43,747 nt of DNA from Ilumatobacteraceae bacterium. GTDB lineage: Bacteria; Actinomycetota; Acidimicrobiia; Acidimicrobiales; Ilumatobacteraceae. The position numbers and the translations under genes are program-made. The stretch spans positions 1 to 43,747 of the forward strand of contig JAKMEY010000054.1 of the NCBI GenBank assembly GCA_022425725.1, in the 5' to 3' direction. This document shows, one piece after another, positions 1 to 4,847 of this stretch; position 1 is the first letter of the stretch, and the number at the start of each line of letters is the position of its first letter. The notes beneath the pieces were generated by a model. It ran no database searches. It was given only the letters and a program-made list of their open reading frames with translations, and had not been told where the DNA came from.

Positions 1-153
1 GTGCAGGGTGATCGATCCGGCGAACTTCGCCGGGCACTTCCGTTTCCGGTGATCGGCCGAGTAGCTGACGGTTGCACCTGGATCGATTTGAGGTCGGTTG
101 ATCCGTCTGACGATGACAACATCGCCCAGGCGCTCGCCGCGCTGGAAGGTTGA
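1..153 (+). CDS. selA: L-seryl-tRNA(Sec) selenium transferase, C-terminal end (partial)
   Basis: Frame 1 is open from the window edge to TGA at 151-153 and encodes the last 50 residues of a protein. The tail reads PFPVIGRVADGCTWIDLRSV followed by an acidic stretch. This matches the usual SelA C-terminus, in which a PVIGR segment is followed by a short beta hairpin of the form DGxxWxDLR. SelA is a PLP enzyme that converts Ser-tRNA(Sec) to Sec-tRNA(Sec) using selenophosphate. The catalytic lysine lies outside the window. The stop codon is one base from the selB start, so the two genes are almost certainly one operon. The identification rests on about 50 residues plus the selB/tRNA-Sec context. 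Confidence 0.85.
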   Translation: MQGDRSGELRRALPFPVIGRVADGCTWIDLRSVDPSDDDNIAQALAALEG

Positions 154-154
154 T

Positions 155-1849
155 ATGGCGGTCATCGCCACCGCAGGCCACATCGACCATGGCAAGTCAG
201 CTCTCGTTCGGGCAATGACGGGCATCGAGCCCGATCGATTCGAGGAAGAACGGCGACGGGGTCTCACGATTGATCTCGGCTTTGGGCACGTCGCCGCGCG
301 AGATGGCACTGTGCTCGACATCGTTGACGTACCAGGTCACGCTGACTACCTGAAGACGATGATCGCCGGCATGTCGCACGCTTCGATCGCGTTGCTTGTC
401 ATCGATGCAGTCGAGGGATGCCGGGCGCAAACTCGTGAACATCTTGCGGTCATCGATTCGATCAGGCCGTTAGCCGGAGTTGTTGCGCTGACCCGAGTTG
501 ACCTTGTGAGCGCTGATCGCAGAGTAGAGGTTGAGAGAGAAGTTGACGAACTGCTTGCCTCGTCACCTATTTCGTGGTCGCGCCCGCTGTGCACCTCAGC
601 GGTAACCGGAGAGGGCATTGAGGCTCTCGTCGACACGCTTGCGCAAACAGTGCGGGAGGTCGAAGCGAGTGAGCAGACGTTGAGCGAGTTGCCGGCACGT
701 TTGTTCGTCGACCGGGTGTTTTCAGTGAGCGGCGCGGGAACCGTGGTGACAGGAACATTGTCGTCAGGGTCAATATGTACCGGAGACGAGTTCGTTATCG
801 CGGGAACCGTTCAGAGTGTCAGCGTGCGGTCGGTTCAGCGACACGGCACCAACTGCGACCACATTGCTGCGGTGAGACGAACGGCTATCAATCTTTCTGG
901 TGTCTCAGCCACCGACTTAGGTCGCGGCGATGTCATTGTTGCCGCAGCACGTTGGATTCATACCGATGTTGTTGATGTGCAGGTTGAACTCGTTGAAGGA
1001 GCAACGATCAGAAATGGCAAGGGCTTTAGCGCTCATATCGGCTCGGCGCGCAGGGATATCACTCTTCGCCCCGTCGGAGGCCCCGACGGCGCTCAACGAG
1101 GGTGGTTCCGGATGCGTTTCCCAAACGCGTTGCCTCTCGCTCCAAACGATCGATTTCTGCTGCGAAACCACGGCTCTGGGGTGGTCGTCGGTGTTGCGAC
1201 AGTTTCCGATGTCTCACCGGTCGCCGCCCCGTCTCGCGCAACTCCAGACGGCTCGATCGACCAGCAACTGATTCATCATGGGTGGGTGACCATTGAGCAA
1301 GCTGAGCGTCTTACCGGGCGTGTCGTCGAGCCGTACGTTGGGCGATGGGTTGCGGCGAAGAGTGTGGTCGATGAGTCGATTGCGGCCCTGCGTGGACGTC
1401 TCGCTCAGTCGACGATCGAGACAGCGGAGTGCACCGAGGTTGAGCGGGCACTTCTGCAGACAATGGAGGGTGTTGTCATCGAACACGGTGCAGCGAGGAT
1501 CGGTGAATCGGATCCGGCACTCGAGTCTCCACTGGTTGACCGACTACTTGCCGAGGGAGTCTCTACCGGCCCGATCGAGGTGAGCGATCGAAAGGTTGCT
1601 GCTCGACTCGTCCGTCTCGGTGTGCTGGTGAGCCACGATGATGTCTACTTCCATGTTGATGTCATCCGAAGCCTTGAACCGATTCTCGAGATGCTCTGGT
1701 CGGCCGACCCAGATGGATTTACGGTGGCAGAACTTCGCGACGCACTTGGCGTGACCCGCAAACATGCTCTTCCGCTCGCGAATTGTTTCGACCAGATGAG
1801 GATCACTCGCCGCGCCGGTGACCGAAGGGTTCGTGGACGCGGTGAGTAG
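155..1849 (+). CDS. selB: Selenocysteine-specific elongation factor SelB
   Basis: This 564-residue GTPase delivers Sec-tRNA(Sec) to the ribosome and binds the mRNA SECIS hairpin through C-terminal winged helices. The start at 155 (MAVIATAGHIDHGKSA) was chosen over an upstream ATG at 98 because SelB proteins begin directly with the G1 loop and because 155 lies one base after the selA stop. Visible motifs are GHIDHGKS (G1), the RRRGLTIDLGF switch region, DVPGHADYL (G3) and TRVDLV (G4 position). EF-Tu-like domains 2 and 3 follow (from about RLFVDRVFSVSGAGTVVTGTL). The last roughly 180 residues are helical winged-helix type, with no extra domain. Length is slightly below the Escherichia coli protein. 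Neighbours selA and the UCA-anticodon tRNA confirm the role. Confidence 0.97.
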   Translation: MAVIATAGHIDHGKSALVRAMTGIEPDRFEEERRRGLTIDLGFGHVAARDGTVLDIVDVPGHADYLKTMIAGMSHASIALLVIDAVEGCRAQTREHLAVIDSIRPLAGVVALTRVDLVSADRRVEVEREVDELLASSPISWSRPLCTSAVTGEGIEALVDTLAQTVREVEASEQTLSELPARLFVDRVFSVSGAGTVVTGTLSSGSICTGDEFVIAGTVQSVSVRSVQRHGTNCDHIAAVRRTAINLSGVSATDLGRGDVIVAAARWIHTDVVDVQVELVEGATIRNGKGFSAHIGSARRDITLRPVGGPDGAQRGWFRMRFPNALPLAPNDRFLLRNHGSGVVVGVATVSDVSPVAAPSRATPDGSIDQQLIHHGWVTIEQAERLTGRVVEPYVGRWVAAKSVVDESIAALRGRLAQSTIETAECTEVERALLQTMEGVVIEHGAARIGESDPALESPLVDRLLAEGVSTGPIEVSDRKVAARLVRLGVLVSHDDVYFHVDVIRSLEPILEMLWSADPDGFTVAELRDALGVTRKHALPLANCFDQMRITRRAGDRRVRGRGE

Positions 1850-1856
1850 CGATAAG

Positions 1857-1949
1857 CGGAGGTGGACGGGAATCGAACCCGCCGGACGGAGTTCATCCGT
1901 CCCAACCGTGTTGAAGACGGCGGAGCCCACCAGGCGCTCGGACACCTCC
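1857..1949 (-). tRNA. selC: tRNA-Sec (anticodon UCA)
   Basis: Reading the minus strand from 1949 to 1857 gives a 93-nt tRNA. The acceptor strand GGAGGTG pairs with CACCTCC (1858-1864), and the eighth pair typical of bacterial tRNA-Sec would be a U-C mismatch. A 6-bp D-stem with a 4-nt TGGT loop forms if one G is bulged. The anticodon loop is CTTCAAC, so the anticodon is TCA (plus-strand 1912-1914). A long variable arm has a 7-bp stem, GGACGGA/TCCGTCC. The T-loop is TTCGATT. The discriminator base is G, and CCA is not encoded. A long variable arm together with a UCA anticodon identifies selenocysteine tRNA. The gene opposes selB and diverges from the next gene. Confidence 0.95.
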
Positions 1950-1972: not shown

Positions 1973-3433
1973 ATGCCGACCCCAGCACAAGAACTTTCTT
2001 CCACAGATCTCTCTGACGGACTCACTGTCGTCGTGAAACGAGATTGTGAGACCTGCCAGATGGTCGAGCCCGTGATCGCAGAGATCGCTTCGGTGCTTCC
2101 CATCCGGGTGATTACGCAAGATGATCCGTCATTTCCGGGCTCAGTCGATCGCGAGCACGACGATGAACTGGCATTCTCTTGGCTTCACGACATCGAGACG
2201 GTGCCGACGCTCATCAAGGGGAGCTCGCAGGCTGAAGACGAGCGAACGGTCGGCTGGTCGCAGGCGGAGTGGCAGCGGATCACCGGCATTGATTCTTTAG
2301 GGGCTGACCTTCCCTTGATGCGACCGGGGTGCGGTTCGATGAGCGTTGACCCGAATCTCATCGACACATTGCGTGCACGTTTTGCAGGTGACGGGCTTGC
2401 GGCCCGAGAAGTTGAATTTGCTCAGGCTGAAGATTCGTTTGAAGCGATGTTCGAACGCGGGTGGACCGATGGGCTTCCGGTTGTTCCTCCCACAAGGGAG
2501 CGGGTGTTGCAGATGTTGGAGGGAACGACGCGAGCACCTGATGAGGTGGTCGCGGTCGCTCCTCCTGACCTCGTTGAACTCACGGTGGAAAAGATCGCAG
2601 TGAACGCGGTGATGGCCGGATGTCGCCCCGAGTATTTACCGTGGGTGATTGCTGCGATTGAGGCCGTGTGCAATGACACGTTCAACATGCATGGTCTTCT
2701 TGCAACGACGATGCCCGTGGGGCCAGTGTTGATCTGTAACGGGCCCGGCACGAAGGCCATTGGGATGAACTCAGGAATCAATGTGTTCGGTCAAGGAAAC
2801 CGGGCCAATCTCACTATCGGTCGAGCCGTTCAACTTGTGATCCGAAATGTTGGTGGTGGTCGTCCAGGTGAAGTCGATCGCGCAACTCACGGAAGTCCTT
2901 CGAAGATTTCGTTCTGCTTCGCCGAAGACGAGGCGGGTTCACCATTTCGCCCGCTGTCAGTGCAGCGGGGAATCGACGAAGGTGTTGACGCAATTACCGT
3001 GTTTGCCGGCGAGGGCCCAAAATGCATCGTCGACCAACTTGCCCGAACTCCAGAACAACTCATTGCGACCCTTGCCGACGCGTTGATGGGGCTTCATCAC
3101 CGCAAACTCGTCGTTGGATTCGACGTCGTGCTGGTGGTCAGCCCCGATCACTCTCGTATCTTCCACGAGGCGAAGTGGAGCGATGCTGAGGTTCTCGAAG
3201 CACTGTATGCCGCAACTGCTCGACCTGGTGCTGAACTGGTGAGAGGCGTTGGTGGCATCGCTGAGGGTGTGCCGGAAGGATTCGGCGAAATACCTTTACT
3301 GCCCAAGTTTCGACCCGATGGAATCCTGTTGGCCCACGCCGGTGGGGGAGCGGGATTGTTTTCTTCGATGATTGGCGGTTGGGTGAATGGAGAGATGGGT
3401 AGTGATCCTGTCACCGTCGAGGTTCGTCGATGA
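1973..3433 (+). CDS. Thioredoxin-like domain protein with large conserved C-terminal domain; probable partner of the UGSC selenoprotein
   Basis: The protein has 486 residues and unknown function. Residues 15-105 look like a thioredoxin-fold domain: a CETC active-site-like motif (25-28) at the start of a helix, and VPTL with a putative cis-proline at 78. PGCGS follows at 118-122. The remaining part (about 150-486) begins with GWTDGLPVVPPT (163-174) and contains MAGCRPEY, NGPGTKAIGMNSGIN and a glycine-rich AHAGGGAGLFSS tail. It holds several cysteines but no metal motif I recognise. An upstream in-frame ATG at 1862 was rejected because it lies inside the tRNA gene. ATG 1973 has a TACCGT hexamer six bases upstream, suggesting a leaderless mRNA. 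The gene sits directly before the selenoprotein, so a redox partnership is inferred. Confidence 0.7.
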   Translation: MPTPAQELSSTDLSDGLTVVVKRDCETCQMVEPVIAEIASVLPIRVITQDDPSFPGSVDREHDDELAFSWLHDIETVPTLIKGSSQAEDERTVGWSQAEWQRITGIDSLGADLPLMRPGCGSMSVDPNLIDTLRARFAGDGLAAREVEFAQAEDSFEAMFERGWTDGLPVVPPTRERVLQMLEGTTRAPDEVVAVAPPDLVELTVEKIAVNAVMAGCRPEYLPWVIAAIEAVCNDTFNMHGLLATTMPVGPVLICNGPGTKAIGMNSGINVFGQGNRANLTIGRAVQLVIRNVGGGRPGEVDRATHGSPSKISFCFAEDEAGSPFRPLSVQRGIDEGVDAITVFAGEGPKCIVDQLARTPEQLIATLADALMGLHHRKLVVGFDVVLVVSPDHSRIFHEAKWSDAEVLEALYAATARPGAELVRGVGGIAEGVPEGFGEIPLLPKFRPDGILLAHAGGGAGLFSSMIGGWVNGEMGSDPVTVEVRR

Positions 3434-3463: not shown

Positions 3464-3985
3464 GTGAGCGAGAATCTTGTCCTCGACCCGACCGCAGAGC
3501 GTGCTCCGGCGACGCGCACGCGGCTTGCAAGGCCAGAGTCACTCGATGGGCAGATCATTGGCCTTCTCGATATCTCTAAGCCACGCGGCGATGTGTTTCT
3601 TGATGAGATCGAGCGTCAGTTAGTCGAGCGTGGCGCAACGGTTCAGCGCTACAAAAAGCCGACATTTTCAAAACCTGCCCCGGTCGACCTTCGACACGAG
3701 ATTGCAACGCAATGCACGATGGTGATCGAAGCCCTGGCCGATTGAGGCAGTTGCACGTCGTGCAGTGTGCACGACATCGCTGATCTTGAAAGTCGTGGAG
3801 TGCCTGGCGTGTTCGTTGCGTCGAGCGAGTTCGTAAGTGGTGCGGATGCTCAATCTGCAGCGCTCGGATTTCCCGATCTGGCGCGGATTTTTGTTGAACA
3901 TCCGATTCAAGACCGCACCGATGACGAAATGCGGGCCATTGCGGCTGGTGTGATTGACTCGGTCATCAACGAAATTACCTCCTGA
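3464..3985 (+). CDS. UGSC-family selenoprotein (in-frame TGA 3743-3745 read as selenocysteine)
   Basis: Two apparent ORFs (ending at 3745, and 3767-3985) are in the same frame, separated only by TGA at 3743-3745. Read as Sec, the product is 173 residues with U94 in the segment U-G-S-C-T-S-C-S-V-H-D. This is the signature of the UGSC family of (seleno)proteins, in which Sec or Cys precedes Gly-Ser-Cys. The region after it (LESRGVPGVFVASSEF, then a helix and EHPIQD) continues smoothly as one alpha/beta domain. C97 and C100 are extra thiols near the Sec. A SECIS-like hairpin follows the TGA, and selA, selB and tRNA-Sec are adjacent. The family's reaction is not established as far as I know; a thiol/selenol redox role is inferred. 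GTG 3464 is preferred; GTG 3455 would add three residues. Confidence 0.9.
3743..3775 (+). promoter_or_regulatory. Sec codon and bacterial SECIS-like hairpin
   Basis: TGA at 3743-3745 is followed by a perfect 8-bp stem, GTCGTGCA (3757-3764) with TGCACGAC (3768-3775), closed by the loop GTG (3765-3767). The loop lies about 20 nt after the TGA. It contains G and U, as SelB-binding bacterial SECIS loops usually do. The hairpin lies inside the coding sequence, as expected in bacteria. Confidence 0.8.
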
Positions 3986-4055: not shown

Positions 4056-4847
4056 ATGAGCGAAGCAGTTACAAAGGTTTCGATTGGCGACAATCTCGAC
4101 TGGTCCCAAGTGGTCGACGACCTCAATCGTTTGTTGCGTCTTCGCACAACACCGATCGGGATGAAAATGTTTGCAACCCGTGACGAAATGGAAGCAATTC
4201 CAAAGATTCGCCGACCGCAATCAATTCATACGACAGATCAAATCGTCGGTCAGGCAAGTCGACTCGGTTGGACTGTCGGAATCACGGTGGATGACCTTGT
4301 TGGCGATCAGTGTTCAACCGTTATCGGCTTGCATCCTCGTGACGATGAATGGCTCTCGGGTGAACGCATGACGGGGGTCTGGTACGAAACTCTTGAGGAC
4401 GCATCTGCGCATCAACATTCGATGACGACAGTGCCGTTCGGACAGTACGAGGCGATGGCAGTATCACCGCTCGTGAGTGGCCGACTCAGCCCACCAGATA
4501 TCTGTCTCATTTATGCGACACCTGCCCAGATGATTTTGTTTATCAACGGGCTGCAATGGACAGGATTCAAAAAACTTGAGTGGGGTTGTGTTGGCGAGTC
4601 ATCTTGTGCCGACTCCTGGGGTAGGGCACTCGCAACTGGCGAACCGAGTCTTTCCATTCCGTGTTTCGCGGAGCGGCGGTATGGCGGCGTCATGGAAGAT
4701 GAATTACTCATGGCGATTCCGCCGCGCTTTTTGCCAGGAGTGATTGCTGGCCTCGAATCGCTATCAAAGAACGGACTGCGGTATCCGATTCCGCCATACG
4801 GGGTGCAATCTGATGCCACCGCAGGTCTTGGCCGAAGCTACGGGTGA
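4056..4847 (+). CDS. DUF169 family protein
   Basis: This 263-residue soluble protein resembles the DUF169 family: an early RLRTTPIGMKMF segment, a central IGLHPRDDEW region, VPFGQYEAMAVSPL, then PAQMILFINGLQW and a C-terminal PPRFLPGVIAGLESL helix. The ATG at 4056 is preceded by GGGAGGT (4044-4050) at good spacing, so a longer frame from 3954 is not used. Cysteines in GCVGESSCADSWG and SIPCFAERRYGG are the most striking potential functional residues. The family is found in anaerobes and actinobacteria without a firmly assigned reaction. It starts 70 bases after the selenoprotein and may be co-transcribed with it. Confidence 0.75.
   Translation: MSEAVTKVSIGDNLDWSQVVDDLNRLLRLRTTPIGMKMFATRDEMEAIPKIRRPQSIHTTDQIVGQASRLGWTVGITVDDLVGDQCSTVIGLHPRDDEWLSGERMTGVWYETLEDASAHQHSMTTVPFGQYEAMAVSPLVSGRLSPPDICLIYATPAQMILFINGLQWTGFKKLEWGCVGESSCADSWGRALATGEPSLSIPCFAERRYGGVMEDELLMAIPPRFLPGVIAGLESLSKNGLRYPIPPYGVQSDATAGLGRSYG

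Follow-up and report, generated by a model that had tools for sequence, protein, structure and literature searches.

UGSC, with 255 selenocysteine (Sec) sequences in the Global Ocean Sampling (GOS) data, ranks there with the most abundant selenoprotein families, according to excerpts of the 2008 GOS paper (PMC2398784), which also contain a UGSC/Unknown_1 fusion; the selenoprotein status of UGSC is thus not new, being in print by 2008. Excerpts of that paper and of a 2026 review (PMC13188914) place UGSC among the thioredoxin-like selenoproteins, and the review, again in excerpt, counts it among the families with functions largely uncharacterised. UAG-encoded UGSC-motif selenoproteins of Geodermatophilaceae have also been published (excerpts of PMC5330540). 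The other described system considered here is GrdB/PrdB (PF07355), the Sec subunit of glycine and D-proline reductases. We analysed a stretch of 43,747 nucleotides from an Ilumatobacteraceae bacterium (assembly GCA_022425725.1, contig JAKMEY010000054.1), hereafter the window, in which a UGSC gene lies downstream of a partner gene and of genes for Sec incorporation:

1..153, + strand: 3' end of a frame resembling the SelA C-terminus, recognised by eye
155..1849, + strand: selB, Sec-specific elongation factor (TIGR00475, 277 bits, cut-off 242.25)
1856..1949, - strand: tRNA-Sec gene, anticodon TCA (RF01852, 63.4 bits)
1973..3433, + strand: partner protein, 486 aa from the likely ATG 1973, with a thioredoxin-fold N-domain and an unnamed domain
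2330..2332, + strand: Cys codon of the partner PG[C/U]GS motif, UGA in 13 distinct relatives
2621..2623, + strand: Cys codon of the partner NAVMAGC motif, invariant in 17 rows
3464..3985, + strand: UGSC-family selenoprotein gene, 173 aa, GTG start, stop TGA 3983-3985
3743..3745, + strand: UGA codon read as Sec94, from the frame and the Sec codons of relatives (UGA; UAG in two genomes)
3752..3754, + strand: Cys97 codon, the invariant resolving-Cys candidate of UGSC (20-row alignment)
3757..3775, + strand: SECIS hairpin, stem 3757-3764 / 3768-3775, loop GUG 3765-3767

An earlier note on this DNA had proposed that a single frame is split by the TGA at 3743-3745 and that reading it as Sec gives a UGSC-family protein with a Sec-Gly-Ser-Cys motif. 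Both parts were borne out. The frame from GTG 3464 to the terminal TGA has this one internal break, which as Sec yields A-D-U94-G-S-C97-T-S-C100 (GTG 3455, in the same frame, could also be the start). The fused 173-residue protein, which the note had suggested searching against family profiles, scored 160.1 bits against NF041046 (cut-off 125) and 162.3 bits against PF24696 (cut-off 25), with the residues 5' and 3' of the UGA matching the first and second half of both profiles, respectively, and with UGA at the first position of the family motif U94-G-S-C97. By profile score and motif, the window gene adds a member to the known UGSC family NF041046 / PF24696. A second UGSC gene, also with UGA, is present on another contig of the window's genome (C62).

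To place this codon among its relatives, 61 genomes were searched, namely the window's own and 60 relatives, and the UGSC family was found in 45 of them. Among the UGSC matches listed, 66 out of 71 contain a single internal stop, a TGA, and the remaining five contain none. Loss of the open frame after the TGA, named earlier as a sign against readthrough, was seen in none of 15 close relatives: the 77 codons 3' of the TGA are stop-free throughout, and the changes are mostly third-position (2/1/34 at codon positions 1/2/3 in L018), showing that the frame 3' of the UGA is under purifying selection. Relatives with Cys at the Sec position, also proposed for comparison, exist as well, since loci with [U/C]G[S/A]C in the family match comprise 193 Sec and 10 Cys, a count over overlapping and not independent loci that leaves TAG rows and motif variants outside. 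Such variants, UGAC, UPGC and UDGC instead of UGSC, occur in L175-L177, L180 and L181.

The 8-bp hairpin with a GTG loop that the note had placed at SECIS distance is present, 19 nt separating the UGA from the loop, and its stem covaries across relatives. Folding energy was rejected as proof of a SECIS, as the 48-nt piece gave a z of -1.08 against dinucleotide shuffles and 34 out of 200 shuffles fold as well. Against synonymous-codon randomisation of its own stretch, the window hairpin reached p = 0.01 (2000 draws), and all eight stem pairs formed by chance in 351 of 20000 such draws. A synonymous-codon energy test at 0.05 was passed by 80 and failed by 48 of 128 UGSC Sec rows, one of the 129 rows being left out for want of codon usage. 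After identical 54-nt sequences had been collapsed, 129 distinct Sec rows remained (127 TGA, 2 TAG), in which 93% of the 8-bp stem is paired, versus 6-56% for slid versions of the stem. Two pairs between third codon positions, 17-29 and 20-26, formed in 123 and 128 rows, above all 2000 shuffles; a third such pair, 14-32, was not in excess (864 of 2000 shuffles did as well). The five Cys rows of UGSC form 1 to 5 of the eight pairs, and each of four rows of the paralog subfamily TSGTVRD forms five. As judged from these alignments, covariation supports the SECIS more strongly than folding energy does.

The Sec codon itself differs in some relatives. TAG stands at this position in Candidatus Blastococcus massiliensis AP3 (L076) and Geodermatophilus obscurus (L113), and both genomes carry a tRNA-Sec with anticodon CTA (Rfam tRNA-Sec score 64-65 bits). 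ARAGORN labels this CTA-anticodon tRNA-Sec of the two Geodermatophilaceae genomes (L229, L230) as tRNA-Pyl. Family scores, selection after the TGA, stem covariation and the UAG/CTA genomes all agree with the central claim of the note, a selenoprotein with Sec94 and a SECIS, and on this comparative evidence readthrough of UGA94 is near certain.

The note had further pointed to adjacent selA, selB and tRNA-Sec. selB and tRNA-Sec are in place, and selA is represented by its 3' end only. The selB score is that of the mechanical ORF from 98, its likely ATG at 155 having been set by eye. Elsewhere in the window's genome, a further selA piece lies at the edge of contig C79 and selD on contig C30. The gene 3' of UGSC, at 4056-4847, encodes a DUF169 protein; DUF169 relatives were seen in nine loci, of which two represent the window and the other seven its genus, most loci in this count covering a flank of 1.5 kb only.

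A selenol/thiol centre of Sec with C97 and C100 had also been suggested, and for Cys100 this part of the note is weakened. In a 20-row UGSC alignment, only C94(U), G95, S96, C97 and G135 are invariant. Cys100 is absent from other UGSC subfamilies and was rejected as a family-wide catalytic thiol. Its codon lies within the SECIS stem, and among the four Sec rows with Trp at position 100, three (L045, L145, L149) compensate on the opposite strand to keep 8/8 pairs, the fourth (L039) forming five. Since the codon is part of the stem and is compensated there, the conservation of Cys100 in the window's subfamily can be explained at least partly by the RNA. Homologues without the U/C-Gly-Ser-Cys position were sought too, and one case was found, L147:1306-3054, a UGSC-partner fusion in which MGTS replaces UGSC and both Sec and Cys97 are lost; neither is thus needed there, which counts against an absolute need for the selenol.

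The partner gene upstream encodes an N-terminal thioredoxin-fold domain with CETC, followed by an unnamed domain of ~340 aa (its mechanical ORF begins at 1862, inside the tRNA-Sec gene). The window's copy gave no nameable Pfam, NCBIfam or PHROG match and no PDB relative by sequence, and in some relatives the N-terminal part has weak, below-cut-off matches to thioredoxin models (best E 1.4e-4). The NAVMAGC Cys is Cys in 72/72 rows with a residue there. When the unnamed domain was used as query, at least 576 relatives were found in the genome collection. A UGSC match was present in 77 of the 80 partner loci kept from the first collection, the three misses running off their contigs, and in 29 of 30 loci of a second partner search, with the miss at a contig end. 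Overall, 205 out of 210 partner loci carry UGSC, a total in which many loci were retrieved by UGSC itself; the five without it comprise L147 and four loci at contig ends (L070, L073, L114, L190). Conversely, three UGSC loci have no partner in the stretch covered: L155 and L174, which represent a single gene close to the start of a contig, and L172, which ends with its contig.

The arrangement of the two genes varies, as they lie kilobases apart in L063, L065 and L115, are divergently oriented in L082, L084 and L096, and are fused, UGSC first, in five loci. The predicted model of the read-through chain has a pLDDT of 94.0 and a pTM of 0.90 over 670 residues. We infer that Unknown_1 of the GOS paper is this partner. 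The association of the genes is directly observed, from it we infer a physical complex, and on these genomic patterns UGSC and its partner likely form a working pair. In L033, L040 and L061, an alpha/beta-hydrolase-like gene, recognised by eye, abuts or nearly abuts the partner start.

The partner itself appears to carry Sec in some relatives. In the first set, four partner rows have an in-frame TGA at PG[C/U]GS, two from Acidimicrobiaceae and two from Betaproteobacteria MAGs. The partner was found in 136 out of 395 genomes of the window's class; in family f92, each of the nine genomes matched has a single TGA in the partner, none occurring elsewhere among the matches listed, and in these nine the TGA falls at the same motif and a UGSC gene with its own UGA follows. 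Over 138 distinct rows, the motif codon is TGA in 13 and Cys in 125. All eight pairs of the partner hairpin form in 7/13 TGA rows versus 1/125 Cys rows (Fisher p 8e-8, which is not a clean probability because the rows are related by descent), and the two Betaproteobacteria TGA rows form five pairs in a shifted stem. None of the four partner Sec hairpins tested passed the synonymous-codon energy test, so the case for a partner SECIS rests on this difference in pairing. The TGA partner genes (L087, L101, L115, L121, L217-L226; 13 distinct rows) share a loop start of CGGG. Neither NCBIfam nor the 119 selenoprotein families tabulated in 2026 include the partner family, and the listings of literature on UGSC and on Acidimicrobiia selenoproteins showed no report of such a family. 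The partner is probably a selenoprotein family in some of these relatives, unlisted so far, and as far as our searches show, the paired system with a second putative selenoprotein is unreported.

For UGSC, the predicted fold (pLDDT 95.2) is E-H-E-H-E-H-E-H-E-H, five alternating strand-helix pairs, and the structure matches listed are generic Rossmann folds. The model is Rossmann-like rather than thioredoxin-like; a thioredoxin fold was rejected, the predicted element order not being that of thioredoxin. Profile comparison with GrdB/PrdB by hhalign gave E-values of 2.7e-5 and 4.6e-5 over 61 columns with the Sec columns aligned, at a probability of only 69-75%, for which reason the likeness is treated as a lead. 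The score of 39.2 (150 column shuffles reached no more than 24.5) was 35.2 with the Sec column masked and 31.6 with Sec and +3 masked, and 46 other neighbour families, the partner among them, scored at most 25.9 in the same comparison (49 clusters minus three that are UGSC itself). GrdE-like proteins scored 26.6 against UGSC, showing that background reaches that level. The UGSC protein had no PF07355 match at E up to 0.01, matching PF24696 only. GrdB-like chemistry for UGSC may tentatively be envisaged from these profiles.

A GrdE/PrdA-type role of the partner was considered and rejected, its hhalign score against PF09338 proteins from seven loci being 15.2 (background), and PF09338 was not found in the window's genome (93% complete). 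The genomes searched also hold GrdB/PrdB-like proteins with an in-frame UGA at the Sec position (G000:C8:16171-16575, L156-L167), in which U-P-[LIV]-C is present in 9/11 rows; four genomes with a GrdB/PrdB-like match (G000, G004, G027, G033) gave no PF09338 match.

The gene neighbourhoods of divergent UGSC copies were searched with Pfam for 97 out of 242 ORFs, picked near the pair, with gene calls by codon score. These 97 proteins include seven short-chain dehydrogenases, six AMP-binding enzymes, and three each of CoA transferases, acyl-CoA dehydrogenases, nitroreductases and TRAP transporter parts. The second UGSC copy of the window's genome adjoins an aldehyde dehydrogenase and a carboxymethyl-hydroxymuconate isomerase, and the neighbours of the window's own subfamily are varied. 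One genome (G047; L034, L044-L047, L185, L186) has ten UGSC matches from different subfamilies. Proteins of ~80 aa near divergent UGSC genes match NifU over the Pfam cut-off at L045:8228-8476 and L182:4978-5235 and weakly at L034:5166-5411, with look-alikes by eye at L043:6755-6982 and L174:381-695.

We tentatively favour a reductive selenoenzyme of two components that brings its own thioredoxin-like reductant. UGSC is translated through UGA94 by means of the SECIS, SelB and tRNA-Sec, as the comparative evidence shows, and would form the selenol-bearing subunit, the product of 1973-3433 being the putative other subunit. Sec94 would lie between a strand and the following helix of the Rossmann-like domain, where GrdB/PrdB appear to carry their Sec, for which the profile evidence is moderate. 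There it could attack a small carbon compound at an activated carbon or heteroatom, the bond being broken reductively with Cys97 as the resolving thiol, and it might be recycled by the thioredoxin-fold CxxC and the PG[C/U]GS residues of the partner. To judge from the neighbours, substrates and surrounding catabolic gene clusters may vary from one subfamily to another. The alternative to the first of these steps, that UGA is a true stop giving two short proteins or a broken gene, has almost no probability: the unremarkable energy of the hairpin against dinucleotide shuffles would suit it, and profile scores on both halves, the covarying stem, Sec/Cys exchange, the genomes with a CTA tRNA-Sec, purifying selection and the synonymous-codon p all oppose it.

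It is possible, if somewhat doubtful, that the pair serves as an enzyme of general thiol/selenol redox chemistry or detoxification, reducing peroxides, disulfides or electrophiles, in which the thioredoxin domain of the partner recycles UGSC and no carbon-bond chemistry takes place. The thioredoxin-fold N-domain, the U/C-x-x-C motif of UGSC, its place with redox proteins in the reviews as excerpted, and the varied gene surroundings of the window's subfamily, which would fit a housekeeping role, all speak for such an enzyme; the UGSC domain is not modelled as a thioredoxin fold, however, divergent copies match the unnamed domain of the partner only and not its thioredoxin part, and ten copies in one genome, as well as the location of divergent copies among catabolic enzymes, argue against it. 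A role of UGSC and its partner in Sec synthesis, or in handling selenium or a metal, is suggested by the pair lying here beside the selA 3' end, selB and tRNA-Sec, but SelB-like clusters occur in only 10/80 loci and SelA-like clusters in 9/80 (up to 8 kb each side, first ORF clustering), and Cys versions of UGSC exist, which makes this reading improbable. With the reductive two-component enzyme as the preferred reading, one may go further and see in the pair a new selenoenzyme class, a widespread GrdB/PrdB-type branch with its own thioredoxin-fused partner and varied carbon substrates, both subunits having Sec in one family of the window's order, two Acidimicrobiaceae and two Betaproteobacteria MAGs; this extension is rather unlikely.

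In summary, a near-obligate partner, Cys/Sec exchange, a corrected fold and a candidate chemistry would give the orphan UGSC a defined assay with two proteins. With the partner comes a further, probable selenoprotein family, in which a UGA taken as a stop would truncate the gene call at about residue 100 to 120. Compared with the UGSC family as described, the window protein is alike in its full-length match over curated cut-offs, its UGSC motif, Sec/Cys exchange and SECIS, and no difference was seen; our additions concern the partner, the fold and how Cys100 is read. The two genomes with a TAG-encoded UGSC and a CTA tRNA-Sec match the UAG-encoded selenoproteins of Geodermatophilaceae, whereas the window uses UGA. 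With the thioredoxin-like selenoproteins, UGSC shares U-x-x-C, but the thioredoxin fold belongs to its partner instead. With GrdB/PrdB, it may share a remote profile likeness around Sec and, in most rows, the pattern of strand, Sec-x-x-Cys and helix, although UGSC is far shorter and its partner is not GrdE/PrdA-like.
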